Positions 607 to 3,324 of a stretch of 30,145 nucleotides of DNA are shown piece after piece. The DNA is from a virus, in the IMG/VR virus record IMGVR_UViG_3300025138_000215, positions 1-30,145 of that record; one strand, written 5' to 3'. Below the pieces are notes generated by a model. The model worked only from the letters and a program-made list of their open reading frames with translations. It ran no database searches and was not told the DNA's origin. Position numbers and translations under genes: made by a program. Position 1 is the stretch's first letter. The number at the start of each line of letters is the position of its first letter.

Positions 607-864
607 ATGATTGATCCTGTATCTACTATAGCTATAGCTACCTCTGCTTTTTCTGCGCTGAAGAAAGGTATGCAAGTAGGTAAAGATTTGCAAGACATGG
701 GTAATCAGCTTTCTCAATGGGCTGGTGCTATGAGTGATTTGGATTACGCAGATAAGCAAACTCAGAAACCTAGTGTTTTTCAGATATTAGGTGGTGGTAT
801 AGAACAACAAGCAATGGAAGTGTTTAGTGCTAAAAAAAAAGAGATGCGATGCGCGCTGAATTAA
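607..864 (+). CDS. Phage membrane-associated protein, N-terminal part (0 frame of a probable frameshift pair)
   Basis: The 85-residue reading starts MIDPVSTIAIATSAF and continues with a helical segment ending FSAKKKEMRCALN. I remember a marine-phage family of about 150 residues with this N-terminus and a continuation of the type AKKKxxxMRxELK. Here that continuation lies in the -1 frame, in the next feature. The switch point is nine A at 832-840, where the two 0-frame codons AAA AAA form an A AAA AAA slippery heptamer. The last seven residues after the A run are therefore probably either a short alternative ending or an artefact. The gene starts 3 nt after its neighbour's stop. Function is unknown; by position it belongs to the lysis block. 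Confidence 0.7.
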   Translation: MIDPVSTIAIATSAFSALKKGMQVGKDLQDMGNQLSQWAGAMSDLDYADKQTQKPSVFQILGGGIEQQAMEVFSAKKKEMRCALN

Positions 865-1073: not shown

Positions 1074-1292
1074 ATGGCAAGTACAATTATAGATGAATAT
1101 AAAATATTTCCCAGAGTCATGATGTTTGTAGTTACAATACTTACTTATCAATCTGTTCATTGGTTTATGTCTATTGAAGCACCGACTCCTTCTCAAGCTG
1201 GTTTAGTATCTGTATGCATGGGGGCATTGACAGGTTGCTTCGGAATATGGATGAATAAAGAAGCTAAGACTGACAGGGGAAATGTTAAATGA
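1074..1292 (+). CDS. Holin-like protein with two membrane segments
   Basis: This 72-residue protein has two hydrophobic segments, about residues 15-34 (VMMFVVTILTYQSVHWFMSI) and 42-60 (AGLVSVCMGALTGCFGIWM), joined by a short Pro-rich turn (EAPTPS), and a charged C-terminal tail. Size, topology and location before the endolysin agree with a class II-type holin, which would form membrane lesions that release or activate the endolysin. I recall near-identical short proteins in marine phages annotated as holin-like. Its ATG follows the previous stop directly, and its TGA overlaps the next ATG as ATGA. A separate three-segment holin candidate lies 230 nt downstream, so one of the two may be an antiholin or a regulator. 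Confidence 0.65.
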   Translation: MASTIIDEYKIFPRVMMFVVTILTYQSVHWFMSIEAPTPSQAGLVSVCMGALTGCFGIWMNKEAKTDRGNVK

Positions 1293-1515
1293 AATGGTTC
1301 TCGCCTTTATTTTGGTGGTCTACATTGATGGGCTACCTCACGAAACAGGAGGAGTCCCAGCCTTCCGTTCCATCTTATCTTGTGGGGAATACGCCCGATG
1401 GATCGAAGAAACCGGCAACGAAACGTGGACGTCCAAAAGGGTCTACCACCAAAACAAAATCCAAGCGTGGTGCGTCCCGAAATTCGTCCCGAAAAAAACC
1501 CAGTTCTGGGATTAA
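1282..1515 (+). CDS. Overprinted small protein, frame A, with hydrophobic N-terminus and two cysteines
   Basis: This frame gives 77 residues, or 73 from the internal ATG at 1294. It has a hydrophobic start (MVLAFILVVYIDG, residues 5-17), then a polar domain with C34 and C64 and an ending IQAWCVPKFVPKKTQFWD. The pattern hydrophobic start, Cys-x-x-Tyr, and A-[YW]-C-x-P-x-x-V-x-x-KK resembles small marine-phage proteins I have seen. It overlaps the 1289-1522 gene in a different frame over almost its whole length. C-rich third positions, unlike the A/T-rich neighbours, fit two-frame constraint. The hydrophobic N-terminus could be a signal or anchor and the two Cys could be disulphide-bonded outside the cytoplasm. 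No function is assigned. Confidence 0.5.
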   Translation: MLNEMVLAFILVVYIDGLPHETGGVPAFRSILSCGEYARWIEETGNETWTSKRVYHQNKIQAWCVPKFVPKKTQFWD

Positions 1516-1522
1516 AAAATGA
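1289..1522 (+). CDS. Small basic protein with AT-hook-like motif, frame B of overprinted pair
   Basis: The 77-residue product starts MKWFSPLFWWSTLMG, a Trp-rich amphipathic or membrane-interacting segment, and ends in a Lys/Arg/Ser/Thr-rich tail. The tail includes KRGRPKGST (about residues 45-53), which resembles an AT-hook minor-groove DNA-binding motif. Its ATG overlaps the holin stop as ATGA and lies at a normal distance from AGGGGA (1275-1280), so this frame has the best initiation signal of the two overlapping frames. Its TGA overlaps the next gene start as ATGA. Proteins beginning MKW-x-SPLFWW are familiar from marine phages. Its role is unknown: DNA or RNA binding is an inference from composition, and the site in the lysis cassette is unusual for that. 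Confidence 0.6.
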   Translation: MKWFSPLFWWSTLMGYLTKQEESQPSVPSYLVGNTPDGSKKPATKRGRPKGSTTKTKSKRGASRNSSRKKPSSGIKK

Positions 1523-1911
1523 TTCAAGCATTGATAGGCCCGATAGCAGAGTTAGCAGGGGGTTGGCTAAAAGGTAAAGCTGCCAATCAAGCAGCGTCTG
1601 CAAACCTCAAGCTAGTCGAGGCAGAAGCTAAAGCTACTATTATGAAGTCAGCTGCAACATCTGAAGCTGAGTGGGAAAGGATCATGGCAACAGGTTCACA
1701 AAACTCTTTGAAAGATGAGTATCTAGTTGGCTTGTTTAGCATACCTTTAATACTGGCATTCCTTCCATTTGAGTGGGCAGAGCAAGCTGTAGAGAATGGG
1801 TTTGCTGCGTTAGAAACAATGCCTGAGTGGTATCAGTACACTCTTGGTGTAATTGTAGCGAGTAGCTTTGCAGTGAGGTCAGCAACTAAATTCTTTGGAG
1901 GTAAAAAATGA
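1519..1911 (+). CDS. Holin, GTA_holin_3TM-like
   Basis: The 130-residue protein has an amphipathic N-terminal part (ALIGPIAELAGGWLKGKAANQ), a helical middle with AEWERIMATGSQNSLKDEYLVGLFSIP, and two clear membrane segments (about residues 67-84 and 106-124). The motif AEWERxMAxGSxxSxKDEY followed by hydrophobic helices and an ending FFGGKK matches the three-segment holin family first named from gene transfer agents (PF11351) as I remember it. Holins permeabilise the inner membrane at lysis. It overlaps both neighbours by 4 nt, and the endolysin follows immediately, which supports the role. With the two-segment protein at 1074-1292, this gives two holin candidates. Confidence 0.75.
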   Translation: MIQALIGPIAELAGGWLKGKAANQAASANLKLVEAEAKATIMKSAATSEAEWERIMATGSQNSLKDEYLVGLFSIPLILAFLPFEWAEQAVENGFAALETMPEWYQYTLGVIVASSFAVRSATKFFGGKK

Positions 1912-2531
1912 GCGACTCAATGCAAAATATTCAAGCTAAGATAGGTGTTGATGCTGATGGTAAGTTCGGCCCTAACACTGCTCGTGCAATAGCAACACAC
2001 TATGGCTTGTCCCCCGAAAGAGGTGCTCACTTGCTAGGACAGGCTGCACATGAAAGCGGTGAGTTCAAACGCTCTAAGGAAAATCTAAACTACAGCTGGA
2101 AAGGGTTGATGGCTACATGGCCAAGTCGGTTTACGACTGAGGCAGAGGCCCGTGAGTATCACAGACAGCCAAGCAAAATAGCTAGAAAAGTCTATCTGCG
2201 CACGTCGCTCGGCAATGAGACTGAAAACGACGCAGAGCTTTTTATTGGCAGAGGCTGGTTACAGTTAACTGGCAAATCAAACTACCAATCTTTTGCGTCT
2301 GACATGGGTGTGCCCGAAGTAATGACTGATCCTAGCTTGGTTGAAAACGAGTATGCGTTTGAAACTGCGCAGTGGTTTTTCAGCAAGAACGGACTGTTTA
2401 AAATAGCAGATCAGGGTGTGAACGAGGATGTAATACAGAAGATTACAAAGCATGTAAACGGTGGATATCACGGACTTGATGATAGAATAAACAAGACCAA
2501 AAAAATACACAGATGGCTAATGGATTTATAA
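1908..2531 (+). CDS. Endolysin, GH19 chitinase-like muramidase with N-terminal binding-type segment
   Basis: The 207-residue enzyme should cleave peptidoglycan at lysis. Residues 6-33 look like the helical half of a peptidoglycan-binding domain (IGVDADGKFGPNTARAIA). The catalytic region has the GH19 signatures: GQAAHESGEF with probable catalytic E49, ENLNYSWKGL with probable second acid E58, GRGWLQLTGKSNY at 114-126, and VNGGYHGLDDR near the C-terminus. There is no signal peptide, so export would need one of the upstream holins. The start overlaps the holin gene by 4 nt. It ends the rightward lysis block and is convergent with the leftward gene at 2540, with only 8 nt between stops and no hairpin terminator, so the transcripts probably overlap. 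Confidence 0.9.
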   Translation: MSDSMQNIQAKIGVDADGKFGPNTARAIATHYGLSPERGAHLLGQAAHESGEFKRSKENLNYSWKGLMATWPSRFTTEAEAREYHRQPSKIARKVYLRTSLGNETENDAELFIGRGWLQLTGKSNYQSFASDMGVPEVMTDPSLVENEYAFETAQWFFSKNGLFKIADQGVNEDVIQKITKHVNGGYHGLDDRINKTKKIHRWLMDL

Positions 2532-2920: not shown

Positions 2921-3136
2921 TCATCTCTTTGGTTTGCTCCTTGGCCTCATTGCTTTTGATATAGTGTTTGTTCTTTTACACTGCCCAATACTACTTTTAT
3001 CAAACTTATAAATGGTAGGATAAACATGCTCCAATGCATCTCCACATTCTTTTGCGGAAGGATATAATATTTTTGACTGTAAGAGTTCGCCTTGGATTGT
3101 GTAGGTAAGGATCATTACTGTGTAGTAAGTAATCAT
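2921..3136 (-). CDS. Small unknown phage protein
   Basis: This 71-residue protein has a hydrophobic, beta-like N-terminus (YYTVMILTYTIQGELLQS), two cysteines (in KECGDAL and GQCKRT) and a basic tail ending PRSKPKR. The pattern YTIQG, YPS-x-x-x-CGDAL-x-x-Y, and a second Cys near the end is familiar from small marine-phage proteins of unknown function. The first ATG overlaps the neighbour's stop; a second ATG eight codons in is a possible alternative start. The N-terminus could act as a weak membrane or signal segment, but it is short and polar at intervals. It belongs to a leftward series of tightly joined genes. Confidence 0.65.
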   Translation of the reverse strand: MITYYTVMILTYTIQGELLQSKILYPSAKECGDALEHVYPTIYKFDKSSIGQCKRTNTISKAMRPRSKPKR

Positions 3137-3324
3137 TATTTTTTTCCTTGCCGTTTGACAGGCCAGTGTATTTGATTTCTGTGTATAAAATTATTTAAGC
3201 AATGAAGGCTAACATTTAATACCTTTGATGCTTGCGTCTGAGTGTAACGAGATTGAGCCAGTGATTTTACTAGCTCAATTCGCTCACGCTTGTGACGCTG
3301 GGTCATTTCGCGCCACTTTTCCAT
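3136..3324 (-). CDS. Small helix-turn-helix protein
   Basis: The 62 residues are almost one DNA-binding domain. After a basic lead (WREMTQRHKRERIELVKSLA), the segment YTQTQASKVLNVSLHCLNNFIHRNQI (about 27-52) has the helix, turn and recognition-helix spacing of a Fis/NtrC-like or homeodomain-like HTH, followed by a basic end (WPVKRQGKK). It probably binds DNA as a phage regulator. It overlaps each neighbour by one base, so translation is likely coupled to the SSB-like gene upstream. I recognise this type of short HTH protein from marine podoviruses but cannot name its target. Confidence 0.75.
   Translation of the reverse strand: MEKWREMTQRHKRERIELVKSLAQSRYTQTQASKVLNVSLHCLNNFIHRNQIHWPVKRQGKK

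Follow-up and report, generated by a model that had tools for sequence, protein, structure and literature searches.

Two overlapping small genes in a phage lysis block, each also found singly in related phages

The window analysed here is the whole 30,145-nt stretch of the viral record IMGVR_UViG_3300025138_000215, and the locus of interest lies in its lysis block, where an earlier note had pointed to two small reading frames overlapping over almost their full length. The open reading frames given there (1282-1515, frame A, and 1289-1522, frame B) were confirmed on the + strand at 77 codons each, with the start of frame A corrected to 1294. In the relative L001 a TGA lies in the A frame between the equivalent of 1282 and 1294, and in L002 the A frame is devoid of any start upstream of the equivalent of 1294, so that the conserved A start is 1294 rather than 1282. 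The features of the locus, 5' to 3', are:

1074..1292, + strand: small hydrophobic gene 5' of the pair; matches phrog_10198, of unknown function; putatively holin-like
1274..1280, + strand: Shine-Dalgarno-like CAGGGGA, 8 nt from the B start and 13 nt from the A start; duplex energy -6.5 kcal/mol
1289..1297, + strand: double start ATGAAATGG, with the B ATG at 1289 and the A ATG at 1294
1289..1522, + strand: frame B, 77 aa; TGA at 1520-1522
1294..1515, + strand: frame A from its conserved start, 73 codons, 73 aa; assigned to the HMO-2011 gp62 family
1418..1447, + strand: frame B core TKRGRPKGST (AT-hook-like), reading NETWTSKRVYH in frame A
1519..1911, + strand: membrane-protein gene 3' of the pair; matches phrog_2524, of unknown function; putatively holin-like
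1908..2531, + strand: endolysin gene of the lysis block (phrog_181 endolysin, 4e-48)

Frame B joins its neighbours through an ATGA at both ends, its ATG sharing bases with the TGA of gene 1074-1292 and its TGA with the ATG of gene 1519-1911; the latter overlap is kept in the window, L001, L002 and L003 despite unequal spacer length. The GC-rich third positions previously described for the region are borne out by a GC3 of 0.60 for A versus 0.17-0.44 for ten other genes of the window. Taken alone, the overlap in the window is mildly unusual and makes a weak case: nested ORFs of at least 60 aa on a common strand occur six times in the window, and when A is recoded at random with synonymous codons, B stays open in 5-6% of cases. 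A permutation of A's own codons was set aside, stops being already avoided by its codon choice. The significance of the overlap thus comes from comparison with relatives and not from the window alone.

Relatives of A were collected by profile searches of viral contigs (31, then 224 matches; 80 kept), and with the exceptions of HMO-2011 and one MAG contig they are metagenomic viral contigs. Frame B is free of stops in 18 of the 88 distinct A-carrying loci, one of the 18 being truncated, and is interrupted 1-9 times in each of the remaining 70. In all 17 full-length overprinted loci, whose A proteins can be as little as 32% identical to one another, both frames are open, and in an unrooted tree of A these 17 sequences form one side of a 100/100 branch. 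Overprinted and non-overprinted A nevertheless align over their full length (hhalign: 98.4%, E 4.6e-15, 72 columns), and C30, A34, C60 and P62 are invariant in 67 sequences. The non-overprinted A family includes HMO-2011 gp62 (AFV50593.1), which resembles frame A in its F..I..C...A and A[YWH]C.P motifs and its similar length and differs from the window in its stopped frame B and its identity to A of about 28%; by sequence comparison, the A of the window is a member of this gp62 family. The predicted fold of A is a small beta-alpha-beta (mean pLDDT 79), in which the hydrophobic start forms a predicted beta strand and not a signal or membrane segment. A fold search with this model yielded no solved relative (best E 2.8), the matches otherwise being to small uncharacterised phage proteins alone (best E 0.004, TM 0.66-0.74). 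Searches of Pfam and PHROG gave no family for A and none for B, and HMO-2011 was the single match among annotated phages searched with A, at E=8. The earlier note had attributed both protein types to marine phages, which holds for A through gp62; B had zero matches in 50,697 annotated phage records.

The B protein is basic, with an aromatic N-terminus (MKWF..WW..LMG) and a KRGRPKGST tail. First searches with B returned the overprinted set plus three loci with B alone (L172-L174), and later ones many standalone B genes, of which more than a dozen are distinct, 38-56 residues long (e.g. MKWLLASYWWMLLTGKKAPSKRGRPKGSKNKPKKRTYKTKPK) and preceded by their own Shine-Dalgarno element at 7-nt spacing. 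At these genes the A frame is broken or too short for A. They sit in lysis blocks, 3' of a holin (phrog_3427), and the gene on their own 3' side looks like an M15-type endolysin. The flanking genes of L161 and L162, where A lies over B, are those of the B-alone loci L248-L257, with the MENDIE.. gene downstream. An R/K-G-R-P core in basic context is invariant in two alignments (A5 and A9), and in L011 and its kin B gains a second hook-like motif, KRRRGRPPKK. With its KRGRPKGS core, lysine flanks and the second RRGRPPKK of L011, B is like AT-hook proteins, which have an R-G-R-P core, and it is unlike them in being a short lysis-block phage protein with an aromatic N-terminus, for which DNA binding is putative; its AT-hook-like tail may bind AT-rich DNA.

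Several further observations concern B. In L168, L169 and L170 the central RGRP is altered or lost (RGQP, SVGLQ) and a basic C-terminal tail is present. In L011 (3220-3271), L179 and L168-L170, B extends 49-88 nt beyond the A stop and thereby enters the following gene (MSKEEEADRLRK...); through this further overlap it gains basic or hook-like residues. Shortly 3' of standalone B lies a family of 54-56 residues (MWVLVWMQ...C...AC; L248 1306-1470, L262 3129-3299, L285 3117-3287) that resembles A in outline, with a hydrophobic start and two cysteines; profile comparison lent no support to homology between this two-Cys gene (alignment A10) and A, with hhalign probabilities of 0.2-5%. A scan with a 14-base DNA pattern was dropped as too unspecific.

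Three states are thereby found among related phages: A alone, A over B, and B alone. The earlier note had held that loci with one frame stopped and the other intact would speak against overprinting; such loci do occur, for both frames, but in separate lineages, which shows that either gene can exist without the other and leaves dual coding at the overprinted loci unrefuted. As relatives keep either gene by itself, and as homologues could be collected for each of the two frames, we regard it as very probable that both are real, selected protein genes.

A full-length overlap of two unrelated genes cannot arise by fusion, so one frame must have been printed on the other, the partner later being lost in some lineages. 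The order in which A came first and B opened up later in its +1 frame is favoured by the ordered predicted fold of A, its larger family and the occurrence of A without B at the locus that the pair has in the window. In L014, L015, L019 and L022, A alone is followed by a homologue of window gene 1519-1911 (MIQALIPAIA..GGWLKGKA). We lean, by a modest degree, towards a history in which B was born de novo by overprinting A, with a shared double start, and outlived it, the freed B having shrunk in some marine phages to the aromatic segment and the AT-hook. Codon usage gives no sign that A is the older frame (in the window, -0.50 for A and -0.32 for B), and in most overlaps that of B is as good as that of A or better; because each frame dictates the third position of the other, we read this as indecisive or slightly in favour of B. 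Some standalone B genes retain a significant trace of A (L257, P=0.0005) and others do not; as the common descent of B could by itself give rise to such a trace, it was left out of account in judging the direction. The reverse order, with both genes real but B older, A overprinted onto it and the A-alone phages having later lost B, draws on that same codon usage and on standalone B being widespread as well; we judge it unlikely, at perhaps one chance in a few, given the ordered fold and larger family of A (224 matches), the A-alone genes of L014, L019 and L022, which sit where the pair sits in the window, and a B that is short and basic, as a younger member would be. An origin of B on A would parallel viral genes known to be born by overprinting (PMC8227390, PMC3744397) in that the frame is confined to a single clade within a wider family, and would depart from them in that the probable newcomer also persists by itself where its partner has been lost.

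Within the overprinted clade, the contribution of each frame was assessed by conditional similarity tests. With the A proteins fixed and the codons redrawn, B-B similarity exceeds the null in 12 of 14 sequence pairs, which are not independent of one another (z 2.3-5.8), L181 being a member of both pairs without an excess; when B is held fixed instead, A proteins are more alike than the null in every one of the 14 (z 6.8-10.9). L181 has lost the central hook; in its place it has TKRGRPKGSKNK at and past the A stop codon, with KRGRPKGSKNK after that stop, and changes at the third positions of its A have reached saturation, making it a natural control in which the hook is shifted outside A. Elsewhere, A fourfold sites differ by 0.36-0.47 in overprinted pairs versus 0.71 in non-overprinted ones (30-70% A identity). 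Their variability in the overprinted clade is roughly half of that outside it, L181 excepted. That A is the sole gene, with B open by chance and conserved in appearance through A, would agree with the chance of about 5% that B is open given A in the window alone, and with the chance nested ORFs elsewhere in the window. It is nonetheless very improbable, as B-B similarity lies far beyond that forced by A, the hook lies outside A in L181, and the compact standalone B with its own 7-nt-spaced Shine-Dalgarno element contradicts it. The opposite proposal, in which B alone is functional in the overprinted clade and A is a decaying relic, could appeal to the better placed B start (8 nt versus 13 nt from the Shine-Dalgarno-like element) and to a B codon usage no worse than that of A, yet it too is hard to credit: A is open and similar far past what B forces (z 7-11, with a probability of 1-7% that A is open given B), C30, C60, A34 and P62 are retained, and A differs between the window and L002 by 14 synonymous versus 5 non-synonymous codons.

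A further alternative places the conservation at the nucleotide level and not in dual coding, the stretch being either an RNA element or a cassette that was exchanged recently. The 3' two thirds are nearly identical in the window, L001, L002 and L003, with differing flanks, and this near-identity may in part reflect recent exchange. Against an explanation of the whole pattern in these terms, which we hold to be most improbable, both protein frames are constrained at deeper divergence (L011, L161, L167), and A and B are each found singly as proteins. Between the window and L011 the bases encoding TKRGRPKGST and NETWTSKRVYH have hardly changed, with A there 66% identical. Overall, homologues of both frames, low synonymous variation and the reciprocal similarity tests uphold the suggestion that overprinting is conserved here between holin-like genes and the endolysin.

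A spanin system nested as in lambda Rz/Rz1, the established model for embedded genes (PMC6139136) and the comparison drawn by the earlier note, would suit the lysis-block position, the two frames nested on one strand and the cysteines of A, but is the least probable reading and did not withstand scrutiny: B has no Cys for the lipidation of an o-spanin lipobox, A has no conserved lipobox (the residues ahead of its first Cys vary, with LSC, HRC, NEC and DDC), a transmembrane-length segment is absent (the hydrophobic segment of B spans about 13 residues by inspection), A opens with a predicted beta strand in place of the N-terminal transmembrane and periplasmic helix of an i-spanin, the PHROG search gave no spanin match, and, unlike in lambda, the two starts nearly coincide and the members also occur singly. 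Judged by its sequence features, the pair would operate in the manner of other embedded phage genes and is not a spanin pair; a literature search found no published description of it.

All overprinted loci share the double start, ATGAARTGG, which in L181 reads ATGAGTTGG. The B ATG is invariant, and the A start 5 nt later is ATG, GTG or TTG among relatives. In 15 of the 17 full-length loci a single Shine-Dalgarno-like element, weak in some cases, precedes the B start by 4-9 nt and the A start by 9-14 nt and could serve both, the exceptions being L161 and L162, where it is poor. Two starts five bases apart appear to be served by one ribosome-binding site. In the expression model that we propose, ribosomes would arrive at AUGAARUGG partly via coupling to the upstream gene, and the shared ribosome-binding site would serve both starts, initiation at the first AUG giving B and initiation 5 nt downstream giving A. 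The A product is a small two-cysteine protein widespread among phages, and the B product a small, basic protein whose tail would bind AT-rich DNA and whose N-terminus would contact the inner membrane late in infection; this picture of B as a DNA-binding protein touching the membrane is our best guess and a tentative one. E. coli AUGUG sites have been shown to initiate ambiguously between neighbouring start codons, and a shared initiation site, AUGGAUG, has been described for Thermus rnpA-rpmH (PMC9841429). The Thermus genes likewise overlap, with starts a few bases apart behind one Shine-Dalgarno element, but belong to a bacterium and encode housekeeping products, whereas the present pair is from a phage, starts 5 nt apart and encodes small proteins of unknown function. 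In two A-alone loci, L202 and L195 (both 2996-3225), an ATG lies exactly 5 nt 5' of A and frame B has one or two stops late in its course; A-alone genes of this type may show the ease with which frame B can be opened.

Overlapping genes are usually argued from a single lineage. Here, a phage stretch of 230 bases very probably carries two complete genes in two frames, and it offers a natural experiment in overlapping-gene evolution, in which all three states occur in related phages together with internal controls (the moved motif of L181, and B alone with A broken). These states allow a direct test of gene birth inside an older gene, of conflict resolution and of gene escape, and if B was indeed born on A and outlived it, every stage in the life of such an overprinted gene would still be represented today. 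To our knowledge, very few gene pairs are started from codons five bases apart, and the present locus adds a phage case. The analysis also names a previously unannotated AT-hook-like family in phage lysis blocks.

Two observations concern the surroundings of the pair. A minus-strand ORF at 1307-1603 was rejected, the same frame being stopped in L001 and L003. Upstream, a gene that is whole in L003 (1266-1727) and L012 (2094-2564) is in two pieces in the window (607-864 and 849-1073) and in L001 (2326-2583 and 2568-2792), with the break at an A-run, GCTAAAAAAAAAGAG; the second half is shifted to the -1 frame and has an ATG of its own, which could reflect a programmed frameshift or a shared split.
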